In this document: positions 4,601 to 32,912 of the stretch, piece by piece
How positions within the stretch are numbered: the stretch's first letter is position 1
How the letters are laid out: each line of letters starts with the position of its first letter
From: Methanolinea sp.
GTDB lineage: Archaea > Halobacteriota > Methanomicrobia > Methanomicrobiales > Methanospirillaceae
Direction: 5' to 3'
Assembly (NCBI GenBank): GCA_018262855.1
Contig: JADFDO010000007.1
Location: 1-64,000, forward strand
Length of the DNA stretch: 64,000 nucleotides
The notes under the pieces: generated by a model
The model's database searches: none
What the model saw: the letters and a program-made list of their open reading frames with translations, nothing else
Told to the model about the DNA's origin: nothing
Made by a program: the position numbers and the translations under genes

Positions 4601-6918
4601 TCTGCCTGTATGTATGCCCCCCACCGGTCGATCCCCCGGTCGCGAACTTCACCTACCTCTCCGAATGCCCGAATCCGCTCTTCGTCCAGTTTACCGATAC
4701 CTCCCTGAACAATCCCACCTCGTGGTTATGGTCGTTCGGTGACGGAGCGACCTCTCCTCTCCAGAACCCGAACCACACTTACATGGCTTATGGAGGATAC
4801 AACGTCACCCTGACCGCGTCCAATTCAGCTGGGACTAATTCTACCACCCAGATCGTCTGCCTGTATGTATGCCCCCCACCGGTCGATCCCCCGGTCGCGA
4901 ACTTCACCTACCTCTCCGAATGCCCGAATCCGCTCTTCGTACAGTTCACGGATACATCAACCAATATTCCAAATTCATGGTCGTGGTCATTCGGGGATGG
5001 AAACACCTCGACTGTCCAGCACCCGACCCACACCTACTCCGCTCTCGGTAACTACAACATCACCCTGACCGCATCCAATGAAGCCGGATCCGGTACAGTC
5101 TCCCGGATGGTCCAGATCACTTCCTGCCAGGAACTGCCAGTTGCATGTTTCTACACAAACCTGCCCGCCCCACCCTCCGGACCAGCTCCCCTCGCTCTGG
5201 AGTTCCATGACTGTTCGGACAGTGCCATCCTCACCTGGAACTGGGACTTTGGCGATGGCAACACTTCAACTGTTCAGTCGCCTTCGCACGTGTACAATCA
5301 GGTTGGAACCTATACTGTCAGCCTCACAGTGACCAATGCCACAGGTTCAGATACTGAAATTAAGGAGGGGTATGTTCACGTCGTATCTCCAGAACCATTG
5401 CCCCCCACGGCGTATTTTTCCACGAACCTGACATCCGGTTTTGTTCCTTTCGAAGTTTCCTTCACTGACCAGTCTTCAGGCTTCCCGGACACCTGGCTGT
5501 GGACTTTTGGCGATGGGACGAACTCAACGGAACGGAACCCGGTCCATCTCTATACACAGCCTGGTTTTTACACAATCAGTCTCACAGCATCGAACTCTGC
5601 AGGATCCTCGACGTACACGAGACCAGATTATATCGAGGGTATGAGCGAGATTGGCGGGGATAAGGGGTACTTCCTGGTGCACTCCAACGTAAATGGAGCT
5701 TCAGTCTCCTTTAACGGCGCAGGGAAGGGCCTCATCGAGAACGGAACCCTGCTGGTGACAGTAGACCTCACAGGGACCCCGTATACCGAATTCACGGTCG
5801 CAAAAGAAGGCTACTATCCCTGCAGCCAGCCGATCACATCATACCCGTCCAAGGACCAGACAATAGACCTCTATGCTACCCTTGCCCCGCTTCCCGGGAC
5901 CCATATCATCAACGCGACTGCGGGTTCCCACGGGACCATAGTGCCTTCGGGTGATGTCTCCGTGCAGGCAGGTGGGTCGGCCTCGTTCTCTGTCACTCCT
6001 GCACAGGGGTACAGGATTGCAGATGTGAAAGTTGACAGCCTGTCGGTAGGCACACCTGCCCTCTATGTCTTCTCCAATGTCACCTCGAACCACACCATCA
6101 GCGCCGAATTCCAGAAAGTCAACTTCACCATCACAGCGATTCCTTCAGAAAATGGGACAATCATCCCTGCCGGGATCACAGAAGTCCCGTATATGGAAAG
6201 CCCCTCTTTCCAGATCGTTCCGAACGATGGATTCTTCATTGCAGGATTGTTCGTTGACGGAGTGAGTGTGACCCCGGTCGATCTGTATACCTTCTCATCG
6301 GTGGTCGCAGATCACAATATCTCGGCAGTCTTCCTCCCCAGCGGGTCCATCACGTTCTCCATCAATGCGGTGGCAACGAGCGGGGGGACGATCAATCCAT
6401 CCGGTACCGTGAATGTCCCTGCAGGAGGAAATATCACATTCACAATGACTGCAACATCTGGGAACGTGCTCAGGAACGTGATGGTGGACGGTAACAGCAA
6501 AGGTGCCCTCCCGACGTACACATTCTCCAATGTGATTGCGAACCACACCATCGGCGCCACCTTCGGACCGACTGGCGGCGGCGGAGGCGGTGGTGGTGGC
6601 GGAGGTGGCGGTGGATATGTAGTCACCACCACAGCACCGACCACGGTTCCCACGACCCAGGCGGGGGATACCGAAGGGTTCGAGAGCGGTAAAGGCAATG
6701 TGACAGAAACCCCCACGCCGACCCCCACGATCACTCCGGAAGAGTCCGGCACCATGGTTGCGGTTGTTTCAACGACCGTCCCCCCCGCACAGCCATTCGG
6801 GAGCCACTTCTCGCTCTATTGGCTTGTCCCGCTTCTCGTTGCGATCCTCATACTGGCAGCCATCGCATATTACTACTGGAAGAAGAAACAGCAGCAGGAA
6901 GTGTTATTCGAAGAATAA
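1666..6918 (+). CDS. Giant beta-propeller / PKD / InlB-repeat surface protein with C-terminal membrane anchor
   Basis: 1750 residues. A signal peptide (about 1-30) is followed by a DUF7948-like domain (about 65-270, with FIENAGQ), then SBBP-type beta-propeller repeats (about 270-730; recurring ITG.T.S..FP and FVTK motifs), seven PKD domains (about 736-1325), a PEGA-like domain (1329-1405), three InlB_B-like repeats (1409-1636; GSHGTIVPSG, ENGTIIPAG), a run of 14 glycines (about 1637-1650), a Thr/Pro-rich linker and one transmembrane helix (about 1718-1740) ending in a Lys-rich tail. It is therefore predicted to be exported and anchored with a very long extracellular stalk. PKD units 3 to 5 repeat with a 255-nt period. 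The ATG at 1666 was chosen because it begins the signal peptide and follows the TATA box. A role in adhesion or cell envelope structure is inferred from domains only. Confidence 0.9.
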   Translation: MRSKVRVWLSVLVILAISGVSLTSGSSCLGIHNDGSVHGVQSPDITGIFSGDGIDGVQGQLTAIPLQFIENAGQSEDAVRFMIISDGASVFFTPEGLTFKGISGEGDAAVPYYSGYRFLGANPALEIKGLDHGDGCVNFLVGDDPSEWVTGVPVYREIEYLDIYPGIDLTYEGTADGLKSTFSVAPGVSPGNIILEYQGIGDIAIGPDGALRVSTSAGEMIELPPVCYQETGSGRVEIQSSYLLLGNNRVGFSVGPYDSRIPLIIDPVMKYGVYLKGIGIAYGRAIDVDSARNAYVTGETFPAPYTMAEGSFGVSGQGTDVVVAKINADGTAPVYITYFGGSGNEAGKGISVDATGHAIVTGQTDSPDFPVDLVFAIDDSLGGGTDAFVAKLSPDGSTLLFSSYLGGSKDDSGNAVALDSAGDIYLTGSTWSPEFPSAGFPHTSTFGGTQDAFILKMSGDGSRIIFSEFIGGSLMESGNGVAVDSAGNSYITGITYSTNFPVKNAVQPSLAGGLWTDAFVTKVSPSGNNIIFSTFLGGPLSDTGNAIAVDGQGRAHVTGTTLSGVFPTQNAFQAYIAGCHDAFYTRFSPDGSSLEYSTYIGGINNEEGNSIAVDDCGITYITGFTQSYDLPVINPVQQYFLGGINDAFVVKFVPWDSTPEYLTFLGGNGKDVGAAIAVNPRTCVNCSDEKTCAYVTGYTDSSNFPSSDPYPAPFEPRGQGGFLVTLCDDTESPASPIANYTYRSECPNPLFVQFTDTSLNNPTSWSWYFGDGTTSTLQNPSHTYHAYGSYNVTLTVANICGTSTITRTLNISECPPPVDPPVANFTHLSECPNPLFVQFTDTSLNNPTSWSWSFGDGASSLLQNPNHTYSAYGGYNVTLTVANEGGSNSTTHIICLTECPPPVDPPVANFTYLSECPNPLFVQFTDTSLNNPTSWSWSFGDGASSPLQNPNHTYTAYGGYNVTLTVTNSAGSNSTTQIICLYVCPPPVDPPVANFTYLSECPNPLFVQFTDTSLNNPTSWLWSFGDGATSPLQNPNHTYMAYGGYNVTLTASNSAGTNSTTQIVCLYVCPPPVDPPVANFTYLSECPNPLFVQFTDTSTNIPNSWSWSFGDGNTSTVQHPTHTYSALGNYNITLTASNEAGSGTVSRMVQITSCQELPVACFYTNLPAPPSGPAPLALEFHDCSDSAILTWNWDFGDGNTSTVQSPSHVYNQVGTYTVSLTVTNATGSDTEIKEGYVHVVSPEPLPPTAYFSTNLTSGFVPFEVSFTDQSSGFPDTWLWTFGDGTNSTERNPVHLYTQPGFYTISLTASNSAGSSTYTRPDYIEGMSEIGGDKGYFLVHSNVNGASVSFNGAGKGLIENGTLLVTVDLTGTPYTEFTVAKEGYYPCSQPITSYPSKDQTIDLYATLAPLPGTHIINATAGSHGTIVPSGDVSVQAGGSASFSVTPAQGYRIADVKVDSLSVGTPALYVFSNVTSNHTISAEFQKVNFTITAIPSENGTIIPAGITEVPYMESPSFQIVPNDGFFIAGLFVDGVSVTPVDLYTFSSVVADHNISAVFLPSGSITFSINAVATSGGTINPSGTVNVPAGGNITFTMTATSGNVLRNVMVDGNSKGALPTYTFSNVIANHTIGATFGPTGGGGGGGGGGGGGGYVVTTTAPTTVPTTQAGDTEGFESGKGNVTETPTPTPTITPEESGTMVAVVSTTVPPAQPFGSHFSLYWLVPLLVAILILAAIAYYYWKKKQQQEVLFEE
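4366..4960 (+). repeat. Tandem PKD-coding DNA repeats, period 255 nt
   Basis: The same segment starts at 4366, 4621 and 4876, exactly 255 nt (85 codons) apart. About 84 bases around 4602-4685 recur without change 255 nt later. Synonymous sites are conserved, which points to recent duplication or gene conversion rather than protein-level selection alone. Confidence 0.85.
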
Positions 6919-6950
6919 TTTTTCCGGATCCCCCATCTTTTTTCTCTCTT
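6919..6950 (+). terminator. T-rich termination region
   Basis: Two pyrimidine-rich tracts (6919-6924 and about 6937-6950) directly follow the stop codon. Archaeal 3' ends form at U-rich tracts, often with aCPSF1, which is encoded at 50518 in this window. Confidence 0.45.
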
Positions 6951-7065
6951 CCGCTCTATTGGATCCAGAGATCCCTGTAACACACCCGGCCGCATTATCA
7001 TTGCCATCCTAATAATTTTTGATAAAACCTTTTTCATTGAAAAAGGGGGTAGTGAAAATTTTGCG

Positions 7066-7426
7066 ACCGACCTTTTTATCAAACGGTGAATATCTTCGCG
7101 TTCCGTTGAGGTGGGTTTCCATGTTGTTTTGTGGGTATCAGACGATAATTCCGTTTTCAAGGACAATGTAAATAGTTGTTGAATCGCCGCCGCCCTCGGT
7201 GACACAACTCATACCAGATTACCTATAATGATGGTGAATCTGAAGGTGACCGCAGGTCGCCCCGGGTCGAGGGCGGAAACCCAGCGGTATTTTCGGGGGC
7301 GGCGGGGTCAATCACATTTGCGAAGTGAGACCGACAACCTGTACTTATTTCCCCCGGATTTTTTAAAACTGGATTTTCCTTAATTCCTCATCGTGATTTA
7401 TGAGTGAGATTGGTGGTAATAATGAC
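7066..7426 (+). repeat. Dispersed intergenic element, copy A
   Basis: This block of about 360 bases is clearly homologous to 53627-53984 (copy B) and shares its core with 32938-33120 (C) and 39128-39409 (D). It contains CGCCGCCGCC at 7185-7194 that can pair with CGGGGGCGGCGGGG at 7294-7307, and an internal hairpin at 7245-7261 (GGTGACC-GCA-GGTCGCC). It starts about 150 bases after the stop of the upstream surface protein gene. The rest of the 6919-7581 gap (about 660 bases) holds T-rich tracts and A-rich sequence before rfcS; no ORF there looks real. Confidence 0.8.
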
Positions 7427-20090: not shown

Positions 20091-20212
20091 CTTAGATTCA
20101 CCTCCTCTGGTGTGTGAATATTCAAAGCGCTCCGATAAATGTTTTCTCCCATATTCCGTCCCGCCCGGCGATATCATCTTTACACAGCACATCTATACCC
20201 AGTTCATATCCG

Positions 20213-20473
20213 ATGATGAAGAAACACCTTGCGATCTCAACCCTTGCTGCCTGGGTTATCCTGGTCACAGGGTTCATGATACTCGCGAGAACCATGGATC
20301 TCGAGATATTCTTCGTTCTCTGGCTGATTGGGATCCTGATCATCGTGGAACTTGTGTCTGATCAGATGGCCACGCCGCGGTATCTTGGGGTATTGAAGCT
20401 GGTTATTGCTTCAGGGGTAATCCTCTTTGGCGTGATCGTTGCTCGGAAGATCATGGAGATCCTGGCCCAATGA
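20213..20473 (+). CDS. Small three-helix membrane protein, first gene of the MoxR-DUF58 operon
   Basis: 86 residues from ATG 20213 (a second ATG follows at 20216). Three hydrophobic segments are visible: about residues 5-22, 28-42 and 55-77, with few charged residues between. No family recognised. The upstream in-frame extension has no signal or conserved feature and starts inside the divergent promoter region, so I rejected it. Its last bases overlap the next gene (ATGA), coupling the two. Confidence 0.65.
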   Translation: MMKKHLAISTLAAWVILVTGFMILARTMDLEIFFVLWLIGILIIVELVSDQMATPRYLGVLKLVIASGVILFGVIVARKIMEILAQ

Positions 20474-22251
20474 GGCGGCTGTCTGTGGTGCTGGTCAGTG
20501 CAGCCCTGATCGTTTCATGCCTCTTCCTGATCGCAATGCAATCGGCATCGCCTCTCCTTTACAGTCCGCGCATCGATGCAATCGCGGATGACCATGTCAA
20601 TGCCGGTGCACTTACCAGGGTCACCGGGGATCGGGCAGAACGGGTTCTTCCGCTGGTCTCGGACCTCCTGAACTCACCAGGATCTCTTATCCTCACCATC
20701 AAGGCAAACGATTACGAGAATGTAGCGAGGGAACTGGAGGAATACCGCCAGCTGTCCCGGAACCTGGACAGCCTTGTGATCAATCTTGATATGACCGAGA
20801 GCGAGATTGCAGAATTCAGGAAGGCAAATACTGAGAACCTGCATATCCTCACAGAGCTTTCCAACGGGACTGAACGGTGGGAGGAACTCAAGACCCTCGA
20901 GATCCGGTACAGGGAGGGCGGCGATTCCCAGATGCTCACCAGCATCACCTACGAGGGGGAATCCCTTCAGAGAAAGATCCAGGATCTCTACCGGGACTAT
21001 CTCGATCAGGAAGACGTGATGGTAAAAACCGGTGAAAAATTCAATCTTGACACCTCTTCGTATATAGAGAGCGAGCGCGAGTTTCGGGAGATTGTACATC
21101 AGGTCGAGACCGGGCAGGAGGAGAGGGTCAGCACCGGGGCAGGTGGCGCCAGCACTGGGGACGACCAGTACCAGCTCACCATAGACCTCCTTGATCGCGA
21201 GGTCTCCTATGCGGAGAGAATGCAGGTAGACGGGCTGATCCGGATCCCCGGGGGAGGAAAACCTGAAGACGTGGACATTTTTATAGATTCACAAAAGGCT
21301 GCAAGCGTCCCGACAGGCGTGAACGGGTCTTTTTCTTTCGCCCAAGTGGTGGAACACGAACGTGCAGGGACGCATACCGTGTTCGCAGTCTATTCCGGTT
21401 CGGTATTTTCGGAGATCATGACCTTCGTCGTTGAGACAGAGGATGCTTTGCTCATACTCAAGCCTCCGGAGGTCACTGAAAGTCATGTGGTCTTCAGCGG
21501 AGCGCTGCGCACAGACACTGCCGCTGTCGGGAACGCCCCGGTAGAGATCCTTTCCGATGGAAAACGTGCCTCTACGGTCACCACCGACTCGGGCGGGAAC
21601 TTCCGGGTTTCAGAAAAGATTCCTCCCGGAGACCACACGGTAAAAGCACTCTTTCAGGCTGACTCATACCCGCTCTCCCCTTCAGAAAGCGCCGAATATA
21701 AAATTACGGTTCCCGAACCGGCCCCCTCGATCGAACGGGAATCAGGATTTTTCGCAAATCCGCTCCACATCGGAGTCCTGATCGCCTCTATCTGCGTCTC
21801 GTGCATCGCTGCATTTTTTTATCTTCGCCGCAGGAGACCGGGCTCCATACCGGTATCTCCCATTTTTCATCTTCCGGGTAACGGGTTGCCTGAAGAGAGG
21901 GAGAAAAGGGAGAGAATGCCTATCTCCCCTCTCCCTCGGGAACAGGATGAAATCCCCGGGATTTTGGATGTGCAGGCCGGGCTTGAACCCGGGATGGATC
22001 CGGGCTACCTCTTTTCAACCCTCCGGAAGGCTGTATCCCGGCATCTCTCATTCCTCCACCCTGGCTCTCTTACCCCGAGGGAACTCTGCTCTCTCTGTAA
22101 AAATCTCCCGTTCAGTACCGCTGTCTGCAGGTTTGCGAGGGATTACGAACAGAATGTATATGGAGGGCAGGAGATATCGGGGGACAACCGGGAAACGATT
22201 CTTGCCGCGTATTCCTCTGCCATGGAGAGCCTGGAGGGGATTGACCATTAG
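20470..22251 (+). CDS. Membrane protein with coiled coil, Ig-like domains and DUF4129-like C-terminus
   Basis: 593 residues. An N-terminal membrane anchor or signal (about 5-28) leads to an extracytoplasmic helical, coiled-coil region (about 60-200), two Ig-like or carboxypeptidase-regulatory-like beta domains (about 235-320 and 335-415), one transmembrane helix (about 437-455) with an RRRR stop signal, and a cytoplasmic C-terminal domain (about 505-593). That last domain has the pattern SLTPRELC ... YEQNVYGG ... ILAAYSSAMESL, which resembles DUF4129. DUF4129 proteins commonly neighbour MoxR and DUF58 genes, as here. The function is unknown; it could sense or shape an envelope substrate and signal to the ATPase. 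Confidence 0.75.
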   Translation: MRRLSVVLVSAALIVSCLFLIAMQSASPLLYSPRIDAIADDHVNAGALTRVTGDRAERVLPLVSDLLNSPGSLILTIKANDYENVARELEEYRQLSRNLDSLVINLDMTESEIAEFRKANTENLHILTELSNGTERWEELKTLEIRYREGGDSQMLTSITYEGESLQRKIQDLYRDYLDQEDVMVKTGEKFNLDTSSYIESEREFREIVHQVETGQEERVSTGAGGASTGDDQYQLTIDLLDREVSYAERMQVDGLIRIPGGGKPEDVDIFIDSQKAASVPTGVNGSFSFAQVVEHERAGTHTVFAVYSGSVFSEIMTFVVETEDALLILKPPEVTESHVVFSGALRTDTAAVGNAPVEILSDGKRASTVTTDSGGNFRVSEKIPPGDHTVKALFQADSYPLSPSESAEYKITVPEPAPSIERESGFFANPLHIGVLIASICVSCIAAFFYLRRRRPGSIPVSPIFHLPGNGLPEEREKRERMPISPLPREQDEIPGILDVQAGLEPGMDPGYLFSTLRKAVSRHLSFLHPGSLTPRELCSLCKNLPFSTAVCRFARDYEQNVYGGQEISGDNRETILAAYSSAMESLEGIDH

Positions 22252-23131
22252 CCGTGCCCCATGGCTTGCAGCGCTCCTGATCCTCGCCGGGATTCTCGCA
22301 CTCCTTCTGCACATCTCCGGAACAACGATGGATTACAGCCGGTATAACACGGGGTGGAACGGTACGTCGACACTCTTCCAGGTGATGGACGATCGTGGCG
22401 CAGTAATGCTTGAACGCATGGATGAACTCCCGGATTCCGGGGATTGCCTCCTCATGATACTTGCACCAGGTGGGGAGTATCCGGCAGGAGAGATCTCGCG
22501 TCTCAGCCTTTTCCTTGACAGGGGGAACATTGTCGTGCTTGCGTCTGACCGGGAGGATGAGAACTCGCTCCTCTCAGGTCTGGGAAGCGCCATCAGCATC
22601 CGGAATGAGAACCTTTCCAGTATTGACCGTTACGTTGACCACCCCGCATCCGTGATCGCGTTTCCTTCCGGGGCGGATCCTCTCCGGACAGGAATCTCCC
22701 GGATTCTGCTGAACAATCCGTCCTATGTTGAAGGGGGTTTTCCCGTGTTCGAGACTTCCCTCCTCTCATGGGTTGATAAGGACGGGAATTCCCGTCTGAG
22801 CAGAGGTGAGTCGCTCCAGAAGTTCAGCGTGGTCGCTGCAGAGCGTCATGGAAACGGGACCCTTTATGTGATTGCAGATCCCAGCATCTTCATTAACGTG
22901 ATGCAGGACCCGGGAGAACGTAGTGAAAATGCCGAGTTCAGCAGACGCCTCATGTCACTCAAACCATGCCTGCTGGTTGATCAGGGTCATTCAAGGACCG
23001 CATCCTGCCCCCCGGTGATCAGAGCGGTTAATCTGGTCCGGGAATCTACAGGGTACATGATTGCGATCATAACCCTGATCTTCCTGGCAATCTCGCTCTT
23101 CATCGTGACAAGGAGGAAAGACCATGACTGA
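22241..23131 (+). CDS. DUF4350-like membrane-bound protein
   Basis: The frame is open from 21947, but that part lies inside the previous gene and looks like shadow sequence. I place the start at TTG 22241, preceded by GGAGGGG, giving 296 residues beginning with a membrane anchor (WLAALLILAGILALLLHIS). The central region (about 35-245) has the DUF4350 pattern of a GATase-like sugar-binding fold: NTGWNGTSTLFQVM near its start and LLMILAPGGEYPAGEIS. A second membrane helix (about 270-288) precedes a short cytoplasmic tail. It overlaps both neighbours, so it belongs to the operon. Start position is the main uncertainty. Confidence 0.7.
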   Translation: MTISRAPWLAALLILAGILALLLHISGTTMDYSRYNTGWNGTSTLFQVMDDRGAVMLERMDELPDSGDCLLMILAPGGEYPAGEISRLSLFLDRGNIVVLASDREDENSLLSGLGSAISIRNENLSSIDRYVDHPASVIAFPSGADPLRTGISRILLNNPSYVEGGFPVFETSLLSWVDKDGNSRLSRGESLQKFSVVAAERHGNGTLYVIADPSIFINVMQDPGERSENAEFSRRLMSLKPCLLVDQGHSRTASCPPVIRAVNLVRESTGYMIAIITLIFLAISLFIVTRRKDHD

Positions 23132-24092
23132 CATCAATGAGGATCTCGCCCTGCTTGCCCGGTATTACCGGCAGATCCACGACCGGATGGGTGACTTCAT
23201 CGTTGGAAACGAGGCGCTCGTGGATCTCTGCATGATTGGCCTTCTCTCCGGGGGACACCTCCTGATGGAGGGAACTCCGGGAACTGGTAAAACCTCCATG
23301 GTAAAGGCTCTGGCAAGGCTTACCGGCTGCCAATTCTCACGGTTCCAGTGCGCTGTTGACAGCCAGCCTGCAGATATCCTCGGTGTCCGGATCTTCGAAC
23401 AGTCGAGCAGGGATTTTTCACTGAGGCCAGGCCCGATATTCACCAATTTCCTCCTTATTGACGAGATTAACCGCCTTGCACCAAAGACCCAGAGTGCCTT
23501 TATCGAGGCCATGAGCGAGCGGCAGGCAACCATCGATGGTATCACTATGCCGATCAAACCGCCGTTCATCGTGATTGCAACCCAGAATCCATTCGAGTTC
23601 GAGGGCACCTTCCCGCTTATCGAGGCACAGAAGGATCGCTTCATGTTCTCGATGACCCTTTCTCAGCTCGACAGTGAGAATGAGCTCGAGATCATAAGGA
23701 GGGAGCATTCGGGAAGGCTCGATTGGGACTCTTACTATCTTCACCTTGAACCTGTGATCAACAGCGGATTGATCATGAGGTTCGTCACGACGGTAAACAC
23801 TATGCATGTCGAGGAACAGCTGCTTGCGTATATCAGGGATATCATTATCGCGACCAGGAACCATGGTGACATCCACATCGGGGCGAGTTCCCGCGCTTCG
23901 ATCGCCCTTGTGAGGGGAAGTAAGGCGCTCGCAGCATTGAGGGAGAGATCCTACGTAATCCCCGATGATATCAAGTGGCTTGCCCCGAGAGTCCTTGCCC
24001 ACCGTATCATTCTCACCAGGGAGGCGGAGATCAGCGATATATCCCCGGGCCAGATTGTGGAGGAGATACTGGAACGGGTCGAGGTGCCATGA
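23124..24092 (+). CDS. MoxR family AAA+ ATPase
   Basis: 322 residues with Walker A GTPGTGKTS (about 54-62), Walker B LLIDEINRL (about 111-119), the MoxR signature SERQATIDG, a sensor segment ATQNPFEFEGTFPLIEAQKDRF and the C-terminal lid. MoxR ATPases act as chaperones that assemble or activate protein complexes and are nearly always paired with VWA or DUF58 proteins, as here. It overlaps the upstream gene by 8 nt; the DUF58 gene follows after 3 nt. Confidence 0.95.
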   Translation: MTDINEDLALLARYYRQIHDRMGDFIVGNEALVDLCMIGLLSGGHLLMEGTPGTGKTSMVKALARLTGCQFSRFQCAVDSQPADILGVRIFEQSSRDFSLRPGPIFTNFLLIDEINRLAPKTQSAFIEAMSERQATIDGITMPIKPPFIVIATQNPFEFEGTFPLIEAQKDRFMFSMTLSQLDSENELEIIRREHSGRLDWDSYYLHLEPVINSGLIMRFVTTVNTMHVEEQLLAYIRDIIIATRNHGDIHIGASSRASIALVRGSKALAALRERSYVIPDDIKWLAPRVLAHRIILTREAEISDISPGQIVEEILERVEVP

Positions 24093-24095
24093 CCC

Positions 24096-25391
24096 GTGGA
24101 AGCAACTCGTACTACCATGGGGATCTTTTTTGCGGCGCTCGCAATGCTCCTCTTTGCCTGGTTTTTTGACTCCGTCCCTGCACTGTATGTCTCTGTCGTC
24201 ACAGGCGGGTTCCTTGCATTCCGGGCAATCGCCTTTCTCCGCGATGCTGAAGCCGCAGCTGCAGCACTCTCTCTTTCGAGGGAGGCCACGCCGATCACAC
24301 TCAGACAGGGAGGAATTGTCACGGTGGCAACCACGTTAAAGGTCGCTGTGCCCCGTGGTATGAAAGCCAGGGCTTCCGACATCCCGCCTTCGGGATCGCC
24401 GGTCATCAGGGGACAGGCATCTTCACCGGACCTGGAGCCTGGCGATCATTCGGTCACACTCAGATACGGGATGACCTGTCTCTCGAGTGGCAGTATCAGG
24501 TGGAAAGGTGTTGACCTCCTCCTCAGCGATCCGTTTTACTCACTCACCCTCCCTTTCCGGAGCGATGAATTCCGGGAGCCAGCCATCCATGCAACCCCGG
24601 TCGGAAGATACCATAAGAGAGAGGGTGCGGGGATATACGGTGAGAAAGACCTTGAGAAACTTACTGTCGTGAAAGGATACGGTATCAGGGCATTCCGCGA
24701 TTATATCTCCGGCGACGATCCCCGCTCCATCGACTGGAAACTCTCGGCAAAACACGGAAAACTCTTCGTCCGTGAATACTCTGGTATATCCGGGAAATAC
24801 CCTCTCCTGGTTGTCGATCTCCCGGACAGCGCCGTCTTATGCCCCCAGAACCTCCGGGACCAGGTGCTTGGGGCTGCCCTTGAGGCTGCGAGGGAGATGA
24901 GCACAAGCCCCCAGGGTTGCAGCCTGATGATCATCTCCGGGGCAAATCTGCTTGCATTCCTCCCACACGAGAGGTCCCTGCAGAAGGTTGAGAGTGCCCT
25001 TTTTGAATTTCACTCGCCCCAGAGAACCGTTCAGTGCTACCGGACCCTTGATCCAATTGTCGCCGAGGCACTCCGTGCACGCATTTCAGGAGAAGAGGAT
25101 CTCCAGAGCGATCTCGGGAAGAGGCTTCTTGAGATCTATACCCGCTTCATCCCGGAGATGAAGCCCCTCCCTTTTGATGTCCAGTGTGCACGCGTCTTCT
25201 CACGCCCGAGCGAGACCGCGCTGCACGTGCTCACCACAGGAACAGGGGACATAAGCCACCTTGCAACGCTCGGACTATTTGCGCGGAGGTTGGGAGTGGA
25301 TGCAAGCCTCGGGCTTCCCGAGGATACGGCAAGCCCGCACCTCATGCAGAAACTCCGGGGTGCCGGGTACACCCTCGTTAGGGTGGTATGA
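24096..25391 (+). CDS. DUF58 domain membrane protein, MoxR partner
   Basis: 431 residues from GTG 24096 (GAGGTG at 24080-24085); ATG 24117 is a shorter alternative without a clear ribosome binding site. Two N-terminal membrane helices (about 8-45) anchor a beta domain and then the DUF58 region, whose signature reads SGDDPRSIDWKLSAKHGKLF (about 205-224). The rest has a VWA-like alpha/beta pattern (LLVVDLPDSAVL). Such proteins are typical MoxR partners. The 3' end overlaps the next gene by 4 nt. Confidence 0.9.
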   Translation: MEATRTTMGIFFAALAMLLFAWFFDSVPALYVSVVTGGFLAFRAIAFLRDAEAAAAALSLSREATPITLRQGGIVTVATTLKVAVPRGMKARASDIPPSGSPVIRGQASSPDLEPGDHSVTLRYGMTCLSSGSIRWKGVDLLLSDPFYSLTLPFRSDEFREPAIHATPVGRYHKREGAGIYGEKDLEKLTVVKGYGIRAFRDYISGDDPRSIDWKLSAKHGKLFVREYSGISGKYPLLVVDLPDSAVLCPQNLRDQVLGAALEAAREMSTSPQGCSLMIISGANLLAFLPHERSLQKVESALFEFHSPQRTVQCYRTLDPIVAEALRARISGEEDLQSDLGKRLLEIYTRFIPEMKPLPFDVQCARVFSRPSETALHVLTTGTGDISHLATLGLFARRLGVDASLGLPEDTASPHLMQKLRGAGYTLVRVV

Positions 25392-25858
25392 TGAAACCCG
25401 GAAGAATGCTGTTGATCCTGCTCCTGGTCTGCGCAAGTGTTCCCGCCTCCTTTCTGTATGCCTCACCTGCCTTTCCGGTGGCGGTCATGACAGGGGCGGC
25501 CTGCTCGATCGCAGGGTTCATCATGTTCAGGTATTACCATGCGGACCTGGTACTCTTCCTGGTAGTCCAGCCCTGCATGTTTCTTGCCTGGTTTGTTTCT
25601 CCCATCCTCTCTTTTTCACTCGAAATGATATTCATCGTGGGATTGCTCGCTTCGATAGGGCTCCTGAGCAGGTGGGGAGACCTCATACCACCTGCAATAT
25701 TCCTCATCGGAATGGCAACGATTGCCTTTCTCCTGTCCACAACGAGACACACCACAATTCCAGTATTGCTCTTCATACCTGCTGCAGCACTTGTCTGGCT
25801 TGGAATTCTGGGGCTCGCGTATCGCACCACGGCACGAGCAGGAGGCGGCATGCCGTGA
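25388..25858 (+). CDS. Four-helix membrane protein
   Basis: 156 residues, nearly all hydrophobic. Helices lie at about 6-30, 32-48, 55-90 (one or two segments), 96-113 and 120-145, with short charged loops and a small Gly-rich C-terminus. No family recognised. ATGA overlap with DUF58 and GTGA overlap with the next gene place it inside the operon. It probably forms part of the same membrane complex. Confidence 0.7.
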   Translation: MMKPGRMLLILLLVCASVPASFLYASPAFPVAVMTGAACSIAGFIMFRYYHADLVLFLVVQPCMFLAWFVSPILSFSLEMIFIVGLLASIGLLSRWGDLIPPAIFLIGMATIAFLLSTTRHTTIPVLLFIPAAALVWLGILGLAYRTTARAGGGMP

Positions 25859-26667
25859 AGATACGATCGCAGAATGATTATGTTCTTTCAGGCATCGTGC
25901 TCCTGGCAGCGGCATTCATTCTCCTTGCTGTGGCTACACTCACCGATCGCGGGGATCTGAGCAGCGCTACCCTCTTCCTTTCAGGTGTTGCATGCTTCCT
26001 CACCGCAGTCTTCATGCTGAGCTTTTCCCGTTCCGAACCGGTCGACACGGAGATCGCATCGCTCCTCCCTGTTGCAGGGATGCTGAACCAGTGTCGGATC
26101 TGTGCTGATCTTGGCGTGCGGGGTGATGCGTGGTTCATCCCTGCCCCATCCATCGAAGGGGGGGTCAGGGAATTTATTCCCGTGCAGGGGATTGAGATCC
26201 CGGGATCATTCCCGGACTTCTCCTTCCTCACAGATCCGGGATCGCCCGGGGTTCTTCTTACTCCCGCAGCCTATCCTCTCATCGAATACCTGGAAAGGAA
26301 TGGCGGACTGAATATCCCGGCTGAAGAGGCAGGACTCATCAGCGGACTTCGCGAGATCTGCACTGATGTGCTCGAACTGGCAGAGAAGGTGGATATCGAG
26401 AGGGAAGGGGATACCCTTGTCATGACAGTGCGGGGTTACAGGCTCTATCCGGGGTGCCGCTGCATCGCGGCAGAATCCCCAAAGTGCTGTACCATGCACC
26501 CGTGCGGGATCTGCAGTCTTACTGCCTGCCTGCTCGCCAGGGGACTTTCCAGCCCCTGGAAGATGGAGCATATCCGCTTCGATGAACGGAGAAGCGGGTT
26601 CTCAGTCGTGTTCAGGGGGCTTCCCGCACCTTTACCCACAGGTGAAGGTCGCGATAGCTCAGGTTGA
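25855..26667 (+). CDS. Membrane-anchored protein with a C-terminal cysteine cluster
   Basis: The true start is GTG 25855, nine bases after GGAGG and overlapping the previous stop; the open frame further upstream is shadow. 270 residues: two membrane helices (about 8-30 and 36-56), then a cytoplasmic domain of about 210 residues. Near residues 202-225 it has a dense Cys/His group: YPGCRCIAAE, then PKCCTMHPCGIC, then LTACLL. That is eight cysteines and one histidine in about 25 residues, which suggests zinc or an iron-sulfur cluster. I do not recognise the family. Its last 56 bases overlap the 3' end of the convergent DUF1616 gene. Confidence 0.75.
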   Translation: MKIRSQNDYVLSGIVLLAAAFILLAVATLTDRGDLSSATLFLSGVACFLTAVFMLSFSRSEPVDTEIASLLPVAGMLNQCRICADLGVRGDAWFIPAPSIEGGVREFIPVQGIEIPGSFPDFSFLTDPGSPGVLLTPAAYPLIEYLERNGGLNIPAEEAGLISGLREICTDVLELAEKVDIEREGDTLVMTVRGYRLYPGCRCIAAESPKCCTMHPCGICSLTACLLARGLSSPWKMEHIRFDERRSGFSVVFRGLPAPLPTGEGRDSSG

Positions 26668-27604
26668 TCCGTTCTGCTCCCCACACAGACTCCGGGGGGG
26701 CGCGGTCCTTGAATAGGAGGAACTTGAGCTGATTCTCCCTGGTGGAGTTGACGATGAACGTATGCGGTTCCTGGTAGGTGGTGTTGTGTGCCAACGTGAC
26801 GGGAAACTGCACCAGCCTTTCCATCGAGAGAACCCGGCTCGTGTTCGTGACCGGATCAAACTCCTGGTCCACGGAATGCATTTCCACAATATAGGTTACG
26901 TTCCGGTACTCGTGGTTTCCTATACCTATGATTACAGATGCTGCCTGCCCTGCATGGAGATCGGTGGGGTAATCGGCAGCCTTGCCCTTCTCCCCGAGAA
27001 TGTAAAATTCGGTAAATTTTTCCCCCTCCTTTGGAACCACGATAACGTAGACGGTGGTTGCTACCGCGGCAACAATGGCGAGCACCAGGATTGCAGAGAG
27101 GGCGCGATCGAGCCGGGAACTCCCTGCAGGAAATAATTCAGACCGGAGACCCTCCGCTATCCGCCTGAAGGGGACCGAGAACCGTTCACTTTCAGGGAGA
27201 TCTGCTCTCCTGTACTGGGCGACTGCCGCCATGCACAGGGTAAAGGCAACCAGTGAGATCACGACAGGGTCAAGGCGAATGCCAAAAGGGGTGTAGTTCA
27301 GGACGAGGCCAAGAAGCGGGACTACTGCAATGGAGAGCCCGAATGAAAGGGCTAATCTCTCAAGTCCGTCAATCTCCTCCCTCCCGGGGAAGAGTGCTGC
27401 GATAAGGGCATATCCGGGGAAGAACAGGACCATCGGGAGCGCAAGAATGATGCGGAGAGAACTCTCGTTGATGACCGGTGCATAGATAGCAATGGCCGCA
27501 AGAAGTGCCCAGAGGTATACGATCGCAAGATCCGCGGGCGTGTTCCCGGGGGAGAATGCACTGAACACCCTCCCTATCGGTGGGACGGTCCCCTGCTCGT
27601 CCAT
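26612..27604 (-). CDS. DUF1616 family membrane protein
   Basis: 330 residues with the DUF1616 layout: four membrane helices in the N-terminal half (about 28-45, 50-72, 84-103, 113-131; LPMVLFFPGYALIAALFPG is the family hallmark), a fifth at about 168-190, then an extracytoplasmic beta domain (about 195-330) with several N-glycosylation sequons (NVT, NTS, NTT, NST, NLS). Function unknown; family members often neighbour surface-polysaccharide or surface-protein genes in archaea. It lies 6 bases after the poly-Gly secreted protein gene in the same direction. Confidence 0.85.
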   Translation of the reverse strand: MDEQGTVPPIGRVFSAFSPGNTPADLAIVYLWALLAAIAIYAPVINESSLRIILALPMVLFFPGYALIAALFPGREEIDGLERLALSFGLSIAVVPLLGLVLNYTPFGIRLDPVVISLVAFTLCMAAVAQYRRADLPESERFSVPFRRIAEGLRSELFPAGSSRLDRALSAILVLAIVAAVATTVYVIVVPKEGEKFTEFYILGEKGKAADYPTDLHAGQAASVIIGIGNHEYRNVTYIVEMHSVDQEFDPVTNTSRVLSMERLVQFPVTLAHNTTYQEPHTFIVNSTRENQLKFLLFKDRAPPESVWGAERINLSYRDLHLWVKVREAP

Positions 27605-28531: not shown

Positions 28532-29000
28532 AGAACCCCCAGGGTTTGTGTACTGAAATAGTACGGGCAGCATTAATATCAATTCGGTGCGCGCGCTCCG
28601 GGTCGCACGTATTTTTCAAATCGTGCGCTGATACTGCACTGGAACCTCAATCATTCCAATGGAAATTCTGGTTTTTCCATTTTTGCGTCTTGCATGAACA
28701 TTTCCAAAAATCCTGAAAAAATCAGCTAGATTCCCCTTTAGGTCAAAATTTTAACTCTGTTTTCAAAAGGAAAATCGCGGATTATGACCGCTGCGATTCG
28801 TGGAGTGTGGAAAGGCAGAGGCTGAAAAAGCGTTCTATTGTGAATTGTCCCATGTCGCGGGCAAGAGCCGGACAAGGGGGTGCAGAATGGGCGTTTTTCC
28901 CATACATTTAAATGTAACGTGGCACAAGCACCTTATGTATATAAATCTGCGCATAGGACATTGCGAGATTCTGCAGATCTCATGGAGGGTGGAAAAACAT
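28532..29000. other. Intergenic region between divergent surface protein genes
   Basis: 469 bases, AT-rich in the middle. It contains a TATA element near 28933-28946 for the plus-strand gene and another AT-rich element at about 28901-28913. The minus-strand promoter probably lies in 28555-28600. I see no repeat family member and no RNA gene. Confidence 0.55.
28928..28950 (+). promoter_or_regulatory. TATA-box promoter of the seven-PKD gene
   Basis: TTATGTATATAAAT at 28933-28946 lies about 60 bases before the chosen ATG at 29001 and gives a predicted transcript start near 28970. Confidence 0.5.
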
Positions 29001-32000
29001 ATGCATATAGGAGAGTCTCAAGGAACCCTCATTCTACCGCGGGTTCAGATTCAGGCAAGGAAAAAAACTATTAAACTCCGTTCAGGCAGGACGTTGAGCC
29101 TGGCGTGTGCGCTTACCGCAATTCTACTCATGATTCAGGTCGCTATGGGTGCGCCTCCGTCATTTGCCCGCCTGGACCTGAGCGACACCCAGAATTACCG
29201 GAACCTGACGGTAAGTACCGTAGAATCTATCGACCTGATGAACCTCTCCATCACGAAGGTCACACTCCACTCAACTACAGGAGACGGGTCTGATATCAGG
29301 AACCTTACACTACCAGATACCCGGAATATAAGGAGAATTTTCTCCGGCAGTACTGCGACGTGGTCTGGCAACACCCTCACCATCCTTGGAGATACGGATT
29401 CCACAGTCTCAGGCAGCTCGATGAATAATTACACCCTCTTTATCAAGCCTTACCTGCCGGTGTTCCGGTGCCAGGTTCCCGGGGTGAACGGGACTGTGCT
29501 ATTTACAAAAAGCAATGCAACATCCCGAAATTACAATATTGCATCTCTCATCGAATCGACCGAGCGTGCATATCTCATGCATGATCCCAGGGGAATACTG
29601 GCCATCGAGAGACCCCCTCTCTCAATAGGGACCTATGGATCCTGGAGCCACCCTTCGGATTATAATGAATCCGATTTCGGGTTTACATTCCTTCACAACG
29701 AATTTTCCGTAAATGACTGGACCCTTGACTCAACCTATGCACAATATGTCTCTGACCTTCAAAACCCACCTATTACAGGGAATCCTCCAACCCCTGGTGA
29801 ATATATCTTTTCAGTAACACAGTATGATCCATCATCTGAGAAGGTCACAACCTACTCCTCCTGGCCCGTGGTCATCATGGATGGGGACAATCAGCTGGTC
29901 CTTTCAGGAGAACCTTATCCCTATCTCTATGACAAGAGATCAGGAGCAGACCTGGTCCTCACTTTTACAAACACCGGCCAGATTCATAATCTCAGTTATA
30001 TCCTCGTGAAATCTGGAGAGACTTATGATGCTGACCTGAGAGTGAACATGACCGCGCTTGAGGATGCAGGGGGCAGCGTGAGTCTCGATGTCATCCTCTC
30101 CGGAAATCCTTTCCTCTCGATACTCAGGGATTCGGGACTCGGAATCGAGGATATGAAGAAGATCGTCTCCTATTCCATCTATGCAGTCGGCAATTCCACC
30201 CCGCCGCAGTCGTCCCATTTCTCGAAGATCAACATTACTCCTGGCTTTGGAACATCGGGATACGCCCTCCATGCACACCAGGTCACCATCCCCGCAGGTG
30301 ACCTCCAGGGCCTCCTCTCCGGCTCCTTTACCATCTACGCGCTTGGAGCGGACTCTTCCAACACGATTGTCGCACTCGATGATGATGCACTCTCACTCGG
30401 GTATTCCCCGCTCGCAAATTTCTCTGCAATCCCTACACAGGGCATCGCCCCGCTGACCGTAGCGTTCTCCGATCTCTCCACGGACAACCCCAATTCTTGG
30501 GCATGGGACTTCGGCGATGGCACCTCCAACGGGACCCTACAGAACCCGGGTCATATTTATACGAACCCCGGCCTCTACAACGTCACCCTCACCGCAACCA
30601 ACGCCTTTGGTTCAGGTTCCGCACAGAAGATGGAGTATATCAACGTGACCGGGCCAATTCCACCGGCCCCACCGGTTGCGGAGTTCTCCGGATCCCCGAC
30701 ATCAGGCGAAGCACCTCTCGCGGTATCATTCACCGATCTCTCGACCGGGAATATCACATCGCGTTCCTGGATTTTTGGTGACAGCGGCACGTCTTCGGCA
30801 ACCAACCCCTCCCATTCCTACACGAACCCAGGGACGTACAATGTAAGCCTGACCGTCTCAGGTCCAGGGGGATCTGATACTGAGACCAAGGCGGGATACA
30901 TCACTGTCACTGCGCCGGCCGCACCGGTTGCAGCATTTACCGGATCACCAACCTCGGTGTTCACGAACCAGCCAGTGCAATTCACCGACCAGTCAACAGG
31001 GACCATCACCTTCCGTTCGTGGAACTTTGGTGACAGCGGCACGTCTTCGGCAACCAACCCAAGCCATTCCTACACGAGCCCAGGGCCCTATACTGTTATC
31101 CTGACCGTCACAGGTCCCGGGGGATCTGATACAGAAACAAAACCCGGGTACATCACCGTCACGGTGCCACCCCTCAACGCAGGTTTCACGGCAAATCCCA
31201 CATCAGGATTCGTACCCCTGTTCGTCCAGTTTACCGACACTTCAACAGGGACCATCACGTCACGCTCGTGGAATTTCGGCGATGGCGGCACCTCATCAGC
31301 AACAAACCCGTCACATACCTACACCGCAACAGGGACTTACACAGTAAGGCTGACCGTCACGGGTCCTGCAGGTTCCGACTCGGAAACCGGGACCATCACG
31401 GTATACTCGGTACCCCCTGCACCCTCTGCAAAGTTCACCGCGAATATCACATCCGGCAGAACACCCCTTTCAGTCCAGTTCACCGATCTCTCCACCGAAT
31501 CGCCCTACGACTGGAACTGGTCGTTCGGTGATGCTTCATGGTCGACTGAAAAGAACCCGATCCACGTCTACCAGATCCCGGGGAACCACACAGTATCCCT
31601 CTGGGTCAGGGCGCTTGGCGGCACCGATACCGAGACAAAATTCGAGTTTATCCACGTGATCCCCACCCCGCCTGTCGTGAACTTTACCGCAAACATTACC
31701 TCAGGGGAAGCACCCCTCGCGGTGCAGTTCACCGATCTGTCCACTCATGAGCCGACGATGTGGTCATGGTCATTCGGTGACAGTTCATCCTCGTCCGAGA
31801 GAAATCCCCTGCATGTCTACCAGTATGCAGGGAACTATACGGTCTCCCTTACCGCAGCGAATGACGAGGGAACTGGAAGCCTCGTGAAAATTGCGTATAT
31901 CAACGTTTCAGGAACCCCGCCGCCAGTGCCGGTCCTGAAGGCTGACTTTGTTGGAAGCCCGACATGGGGATACGCCCCGCTCATGGTGCTCTTTGCTGAC

Positions 32001-32912
32001 ATCTCTACTGGAAGTCCGATCTCCTGGAACTGGTCTTTCGGCGATGGAACAATGTCACAGGAACAGAATCCTTCACATAGCTATGCTACCACCGGCGGCT
32101 ACACGGTTTCCCTCACTGTCTCGAACGGGACAGCCTATGATACGATGACAAAGTCCACGTACATCAGCGTCTCCCGCAGGGGCGGCACCGGGGGCGGTGG
32201 AGGAGGGGGAGGAGGCGGTGGAGGGGGCACGTTCCTCGTAACCCCGACGCCCACACCAACCGCCACGGCCACCCCAACACCCACGCCGACGAGCACGGGA
32301 ACCCTTCCGCTCGGCCCCGACAACCGGACCACGCAGCCGGTGACCGTCGGGTCATATGACGGGGTGGCAACCATCTCCATAGGGGCCGGGGTTGCAGTCA
32401 CCTGTGACGACGGGACACCAGTCAGGGATATCAGTATTTCGCCCGTCCCCGAAGGAGGCCTTCCGAGCCTTCCGGGTGAACCGGTCTTCATGGGATATGC
32501 GTACAATATTACTCCCGATTGCGCAACATTCAATCCTGCAGTACTACTGACGTATACCTTCACTCCCGAACAATGGAGTACACTGGCAGGCAGGGACCTC
32601 GTGGTGATGTGGTATGACGCATCAAAAGGCAGCTGGGTGTCGCTCCCGACCTCGGTCGATCAGGCAGGACGGTCTGTGATCACCGGGATCTCCGATGGTG
32701 GGATTTACGGCCTCTTTGCAAAGACACCGGCAACCACCCCTGTCCAGACCGAAGTCCCGGTGACAACCCAGGCACCCTCCGGACCGGAGATCCCATGGGT
32801 GTGGATCCTCGCTGGTGTCGTCGCAGTCGCAGCGATAGGAGGAGGAGCGTACTACTTCCTGAAGAGGCGCTCTGACGAAGGCGAGCCTCCCGGCGGGGAT
32901 GAACTCTCCTGA
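29001..32912 (+). CDS. Seven-PKD surface protein with beta-domain and C-terminal membrane anchor
   Basis: 1303 residues from ATG 29001 (GGAGGG at about 28984); the frame is open from 28800 but that part lies upstream of the TATA box. A signal peptide (about 25-50) is followed by an unrecognised region of about 420 residues with many N-glycosylation sequons, seven PKD domains (starting near residues 471, 558, 641, 725, 808, 891 and 979), a Gly run (about 1062-1077), a PTPTPT linker, a beta-rich domain (about 1114-1242) similar to that of the gene at 37125, and a membrane helix (about 1264-1287) with basic tail. An extended surface adhesin or envelope stalk is the likely role. The exact start is uncertain. 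Confidence 0.88.
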   Translation: MHIGESQGTLILPRVQIQARKKTIKLRSGRTLSLACALTAILLMIQVAMGAPPSFARLDLSDTQNYRNLTVSTVESIDLMNLSITKVTLHSTTGDGSDIRNLTLPDTRNIRRIFSGSTATWSGNTLTILGDTDSTVSGSSMNNYTLFIKPYLPVFRCQVPGVNGTVLFTKSNATSRNYNIASLIESTERAYLMHDPRGILAIERPPLSIGTYGSWSHPSDYNESDFGFTFLHNEFSVNDWTLDSTYAQYVSDLQNPPITGNPPTPGEYIFSVTQYDPSSEKVTTYSSWPVVIMDGDNQLVLSGEPYPYLYDKRSGADLVLTFTNTGQIHNLSYILVKSGETYDADLRVNMTALEDAGGSVSLDVILSGNPFLSILRDSGLGIEDMKKIVSYSIYAVGNSTPPQSSHFSKINITPGFGTSGYALHAHQVTIPAGDLQGLLSGSFTIYALGADSSNTIVALDDDALSLGYSPLANFSAIPTQGIAPLTVAFSDLSTDNPNSWAWDFGDGTSNGTLQNPGHIYTNPGLYNVTLTATNAFGSGSAQKMEYINVTGPIPPAPPVAEFSGSPTSGEAPLAVSFTDLSTGNITSRSWIFGDSGTSSATNPSHSYTNPGTYNVSLTVSGPGGSDTETKAGYITVTAPAAPVAAFTGSPTSVFTNQPVQFTDQSTGTITFRSWNFGDSGTSSATNPSHSYTSPGPYTVILTVTGPGGSDTETKPGYITVTVPPLNAGFTANPTSGFVPLFVQFTDTSTGTITSRSWNFGDGGTSSATNPSHTYTATGTYTVRLTVTGPAGSDSETGTITVYSVPPAPSAKFTANITSGRTPLSVQFTDLSTESPYDWNWSFGDASWSTEKNPIHVYQIPGNHTVSLWVRALGGTDTETKFEFIHVIPTPPVVNFTANITSGEAPLAVQFTDLSTHEPTMWSWSFGDSSSSSERNPLHVYQYAGNYTVSLTAANDEGTGSLVKIAYINVSGTPPPVPVLKADFVGSPTWGYAPLMVLFADISTGSPISWNWSFGDGTMSQEQNPSHSYATTGGYTVSLTVSNGTAYDTMTKSTYISVSRRGGTGGGGGGGGGGGGGTFLVTPTPTPTATATPTPTPTSTGTLPLGPDNRTTQPVTVGSYDGVATISIGAGVAVTCDDGTPVRDISISPVPEGGLPSLPGEPVFMGYAYNITPDCATFNPAVLLTYTFTPEQWSTLAGRDLVVMWYDASKGSWVSLPTSVDQAGRSVITGISDGGIYGLFAKTPATTPVQTEVPVTTQAPSGPEIPWVWILAGVVAVAAIGGGAYYFLKRRSDEGEPPGGDELS

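Follow-up and report, generated by a model that had tools for sequence, protein, structure and literature searches.

The last gene of a MoxR operon in a Methanolinea sp. genome (assembly GCA_018262855.1) encodes a small membrane protein with an unusually dense cluster of cysteines, and the locus raises the question of whether these cysteines form a metal site and, if so, what such a site does beside a MoxR ATPase. Here we report a computational analysis of this gene and its homologues, starting from the first 64,000 nucleotides of contig JADFDO010000007.1 (hereafter the window).

Gene layout and neighbourhood

The gene is a 270-aa open reading frame (25855-26667, plus strand) with a GTG start that overlaps the preceding gene, and it closes a tightly packed run of genes on the same strand that begins at 20114. 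The open reading frame layout and the translation agree with an earlier reading made from the sequence alone (the sequence-only reading), which had placed the gene last in its operon. The features of the locus are as follows:

20114..20473, plus strand: small membrane-type protein of 119 aa (open reading frame; no Pfam match above cut-off)
20470..22251, plus strand: protein with Ig-like stretches, its C-terminus weakly matching DUF4129 (PF16640, E 1.9e-07; PF13559, E 0.015; both below cut-off)
22208..23131, plus strand: DUF4350 protein with a provisional start codon (PF14258, E 1.6e-21)
23124..24092, plus strand: MoxR AAA+ ATPase (PF07726, E 1.4e-51)
24096..25391, plus strand: DUF58 (vWA-type) protein (PF01882, E 1.5e-08)
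25388..25858, plus strand: membrane-type protein of 156 aa, overlapping the start of the 270-aa gene (open reading frame; no Pfam family)
25855..26667, plus strand: cysteine-cluster membrane protein of 270 aa (translation, homologue searches, AlphaFold models)
26035..26628, plus strand: soluble domain of this protein, residues 61-258, predicted to be V4R/H-NOX/TRAPP-like (pTM 0.75, fold searches, profile comparison)
26455..26529, plus strand: cysteine cluster, residues 201-225, with the core C201, C212, C217 and C220 (62-sequence alignment)
26612..27604, minus strand: DUF1616 protein, convergent neighbour (PF07760, E 2.4e-109)

No metalloenzyme gene was found among the neighbours scanned at the window locus. 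The window also holds a 1370-aa open reading frame (28800-32912, plus strand) that includes a poly-glycine run and, at the C-terminus, a hydrophobic segment; its repeated stretches we take to be PKD-like, and its product is presumably a surface protein.

An HMM search, which the sequence-only reading had suggested, returned no Pfam or NCBIfam match above the curated cut-offs for the 25855-26667 product or for ten divergent homologues, and the best hit of a 41-row family profile among PDB sequences had an E value of 0.33. A single-sequence search detected homologues in 50 of 61 relatives, and the 41-row profile in 70 of 294 genomes from across the phylum. Their neighbours were counted with profiles built from the window's own neighbour genes at 89 loci, a set without L001-L030 and L081-L110, whose flanks are short and which mostly repeat other loci, and without L073 (no match). 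MoxR, DUF58 or DUF4350 stands beside the family gene in 72 of the 89 loci, and all three do in 65; many of the listed loci also match the profile of the 119-aa membrane-type protein or, beside the family gene, that of the 156-aa protein. Because such neighbours recur in 72 of 89 loci, the family looks like a regular part of the MoxR/DUF58/DUF4350 system. The other 17 loci include some that stop at contig borders near the gene (e.g. L127, L142, L144) and some copies in other surroundings. Distant lineages have another gene order (DUF58 followed by the family gene with MoxR on the opposite strand, or the family gene divergent from DUF4129) and the same company. Across the 61 relatives, the family and DUF4350 occur together in 45 genomes and are both missing from 10, the family occurring alone in five and DUF4350 alone in one. 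Solely from gene order, we infer that the 270-aa protein may form a physical complex with MoxR.

Nine copies lie away from MoxR (L063, L064, L065, L068, L069, L148, L149, L070, L072) and retain the four core cysteines; seven of them have only a match to the 119-aa membrane protein profile nearby, and two have none.

Makarova and colleagues predicted a secretion or membrane-remodelling complex from archaeal gene neighbourhoods with DUF4350 (arCOG01314), MoxR, vWA and DUF1616-type genes (PMC5898192). The gene company is as here, with DUF4350, MoxR, vWA-type, DUF1616-type and small membrane proteins; section 3.2 and the tables of that paper describe no cysteine-rich subunit, and the families with two or three transmembrane segments in its tables might include the 270-aa family. 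The literature covered by our search, which leaves out most subscription journals, contains no description of the four-cysteine site.

Conservation of the cysteine cluster

Residues 201-225 (nucleotides 26455-26529) contain seven of the 11 cysteines of the protein (201, 203, 211, 212, 217, 220, 225) and one histidine (215). The dense cluster described in the sequence-only reading is thus present, with seven cysteines in place of the eight counted there. When the residues of the protein were shuffled 200,000 times, 81 of the shuffled sequences had at least seven cysteines within 25 residues; since this length was picked after the cluster had been seen, conservation is the stronger argument.

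In an alignment of 62 distinct homologues of the close set, C201, C212 and C217 are cysteine in every sequence and C220 in 61, the sole exception being the close homologue L057 with serine. The sequence-only reading had made its metal site depend on conservation of the cysteines, which holds for these four, partly for C211 (51 of 62) and C225 (44 of 62), and fails for C203 and H215. H215, substituted in many homologues, was rejected as a ligand; C47, C80, C83 and C169 (cysteine in 31, 20, 29 and 30 of the 62) were rejected as additional ligands. The core motif reads C-x10-C-x4-C-x2-C, its first spacing being mostly 10, with 8 in L055 and 11 in L061 and L062. L108, the same gene as L055, also keeps the four cysteines, its first spacing of 8 falling outside the search pattern of 10 or 11.

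A further 39 homologues were aligned, leaving out two short fragments (L145, L118). The four cysteines are kept in 27 of them and absent in 11, and L127, the one left, is truncated where its contig ends. Of the 27, 15 have a site like that of the close set, and the remaining 12 have C-x3-C-x4-C-x2-C. The 11 homologues without the site have none of the four cysteines, and most read FDHPIPS or similar at this place. On L145, a short reading frame (6824-7258, minus strand) resembles the cysteine region of the family and has part of the site; it is possibly a gene remnant.

Predicted fold and related domains

The AlphaFold2 model of the full-length protein (mean pLDDT 68.2, pTM 0.61; one of five models good) has two N-terminal helices, at residues 7-29 and 35-58, in agreement with the two membrane helices of the sequence-only reading. 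Modelled alone, the soluble domain reached a mean of 74.3 and a pTM of 0.75, with two of five models good. The predicted structure places C201 in a helix (198-207), C211 and C212 in a loop or short helix, C217 in a loop and C220 in the last helix; model confidence is lower in the cysteine stretch than elsewhere (block means 59 to 71). The models, which are of moderate confidence, and a weak profile match described below place the soluble domain near the V4R/H-NOX/TRAPP/XylR-sensor fold, and the cysteines close to where its last helix begins. Mean Lys + Arg counts in 90 sequences were 1.5 before, 0.7 between and 1.29 after the helices, with many acidic residues as well, and weakly suggest a cytoplasmic soluble domain; the counts in 11 sequences of the class that has no cysteine site point clearly to neither side.

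Many structural matches were to H-NOX, soluble guanylate cyclase, TRAPP subunits, BcsD, MopR/PoxR/DmpR and YslB, and the domain model also matched MJ_1460, titled vinyl-4-reductase family protein; we take all of these to share one fold class. The best Foldseek E values were 0.028 for the full-length model (H-NOX) and, for the domain model, 0.015 (a designed protein) and 0.016 (BcsD), none being below 0.001. The best Z score was 8.0, a level rated middling, for BcsD with the full-length model and for MopR with the domain model (110 residues at 3.6 A). Matches to H-NOX and TRAPP (Bet3, TPC6) were many, with Z of about 6 to 8, and the domain differs from these in being preceded by membrane helices. 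Designed proteins, a proteasome and a collagenase also appeared among the matches and were set aside as generic and outside the V4R-like class.

The V4R domain (PF02830) did not match the window protein at E values up to 1, where three other Pfam families did, nor was it among the 25 families shown of 39 in a Pfam scan of 41 family members. Compared with a profile of 49 V4R domains from the phylum, the family profile scored 20.1 (P 0.022), which is only suggestive; with 30 domains the result was too weak (P 0.093). Controls scored at most 18.2 (40 column-shuffled profiles), 13.7 (reversed profile) and at most 14.8 (six neighbour families). The weak match is collinear, goes with a similar predicted fold, and aligns C220 with the V4R cysteine that opens the last helix. 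V4R domains combine this helix-start cysteine with a C-x7-C pair in the last hairpin, whereas the 270-aa family has three cysteines ahead of the last helix and no conserved hairpin cysteine; the site, if homologous at all, would therefore be a relocated one. The window's own genome has true V4R domains at L156 and L173, one type of which has a DCFEC-like cysteine pair before the helix-start cysteine.

Two members of this fold class have described cysteine sites. The V4R cysteines C206, C232 and C240 of MsvR form a redox switch (PMC3729527), and the zinc ligands of DmpR are Cys151, Glu172, Cys177 and Cys185 (PMC7264223); by the residue numbers in these sources, the cysteine spacings of 26 and 8 are equal in both proteins. 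The XylR-type sensors (DmpR, MopR, PoxR) are among the top structural matches, and the cysteine-liganded metal of DmpR lies near the same region as the site considered here. Its zinc is held by a hairpin Glu-Cys-Cys and one further cysteine (PMC7264223), in contrast to four cysteines here, with no conserved cysteine in the hairpin.

Oxygen and the nature of the site

Of the 70 genomes of the phylum that carry the family, 10 have the haem-copper oxidase subunit COX1, and the homologues read in these ten have none of the four cysteines. In the other 60 genomes, all 59 readable cases keep the four cysteines, the homologue of G088 being cut by a contig end. McrA was found in 48 of the 60 genomes without COX1 and in none of the ten with it. 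The window's own genome gave no McrA match despite a completeness rating of 99%, most of its relatives having the gene; an assembly gap is likely.

The oxidases and the large number of TFB genes make it probable that the COX1-bearing class is Halobacteria. With a profile specific to the class, the family was found in 70 of 145 of its genomes, and in the one copy read from each of the 70, no stretch of 25 residues had three or more cysteines (the L303 copy covers just the final portion of the region). Fourteen second copies gave the same picture. COX1 is present in all 60 of these 70 genomes that lay outside the first survey. Overall, the site is missing in 70 of 70 oxidase-bearing genomes (one read in part) and present in 59 of 59 readable oxidase-free genomes. 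In a quick tree of 100 rows with the cysteine columns removed, the group without cysteines falls on one side of a branch with an SH-aLRT value of 99, which requires one state change. This tree lacks L127 (contig end), has a single long branch, that of L131, and is compatible with gain as well as with loss, and the single change means that the pattern is one event, not a replicated test, with oxygen confounded with lineage. The best TFB zinc ribbons from the ten COX1 genomes, taken as a control, retain all four cysteines in nine of nine readable cases, so cysteines are not simply avoided in this class.

The near-obligatory presence of the four cysteines, the free length of the first loop and the lack of the site in a class with oxidases together suggest one metal centre, which is more likely to be oxygen-sensitive than purely structural. 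The proposal of an iron-sulfur or zinc site in a MoxR-associated protein, made in the sequence-only reading, thus gains from the near-invariant cysteines, the gene company and an absence confined to oxidase-bearing genomes, and loses its eight-cysteine pattern. The reading that we prefer, tentatively and with somewhat less than even confidence, is a membrane-held redox sensor with an oxygen-sensitive, probably [4Fe-4S], centre that acts on the MoxR-DUF58 machine. The 270-aa protein would then serve the archaeal MoxR/DUF58/DUF4350 envelope system as a sensory subunit anchored in the membrane, and the last-helix region of its putatively cytoplasmic, V4R/H-NOX/TRAPP-like domain would carry the four-cysteine site. 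This site (C-x10-C-x4-C-x2-C, with first spacings of 8 to 11 in close relatives, and C-x3-C-x4-C-x2-C in other lineages) would bind [4Fe-4S], and oxidation or loss of the cluster would alter the domain and hence the activity of the neighbouring MoxR-DUF58 pair. Against this reading it counts that the missing site is one event, that the spacing is no proof of an iron-sulfur cluster, that zinc fits the geometry equally well, that the fold matches are weak, that L057 has serine at C220, that paralogues without MoxR exist and that the V4R hairpin cysteine pair is absent.

Zinc is the chief rival. Four cysteines with a CxxC are the commonest zinc pattern. A structural zinc would fasten the loop onto the last helix of a V4R-like domain, which would act as a scaffold or bind a ligand and play no part in redox sensing, and the three cysteines and glutamate that hold zinc in DmpR, within the same fold class, favour it (PMC7264223). 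We nevertheless consider this reading somewhat less likely than the redox sensor, as the site is missing from a whole class that retains the protein and, in nine of nine readable cases, the cysteines of the TFB zinc ribbon. Next in order comes a thiol/disulfide switch without metal, the role proposed for the cysteines in the V4R domain of MsvR (PMC3729527), and the additional, partly conserved C211 and C225 also speak for it; near-invariance of four cysteines together goes beyond what a switch requires, and a switch would be useful to aerobes as well, which leaves it quite improbable. A third reading regards the MoxR-DUF58 pair as a cofactor-insertion chaperone, with the 270-aa protein carrying or receiving the metal. 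NorQ and NorD, a MoxR/VWA pair, are required for insertion of non-haem iron (PMC9976466), and RavA-ViaA works with respiratory complexes (PMC3893208, PMC10585395). These systems share with ours a MoxR ATPase with a vWA-type partner, and have a link to metalloproteins; they differ in that the partner here is DUF58, the locus is of envelope type and the membrane subunit has a cysteine site. With no metalloenzyme gene identified among the scanned neighbours, and a protein that persists without the site in one class, we rate this reading the least probable of the three.

Returning to the oxygen-sensitive sensor, a more specific version of it is possible, though doubtful: an H-NOX/V4R-type sensory fold with a [4Fe-4S] cluster in place of the haem or zinc site would report oxygen or redox state to the envelope MoxR machine, and archaea with aerobic respiration would have disarmed the sensor and kept the subunit. 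For the V4R/H-NOX/TRAPP fold class, a metal centre in the 270-aa family would mean one more metal site, in a relocated position. The MoxR/DUF58/DUF4350 system occurs widely in archaea, with its job so far a matter of guesswork; a regular subunit with a probable metal site that family-bearing genomes have where they lack a haem-copper oxidase, and lack where they have one, offers a concrete handle on it.
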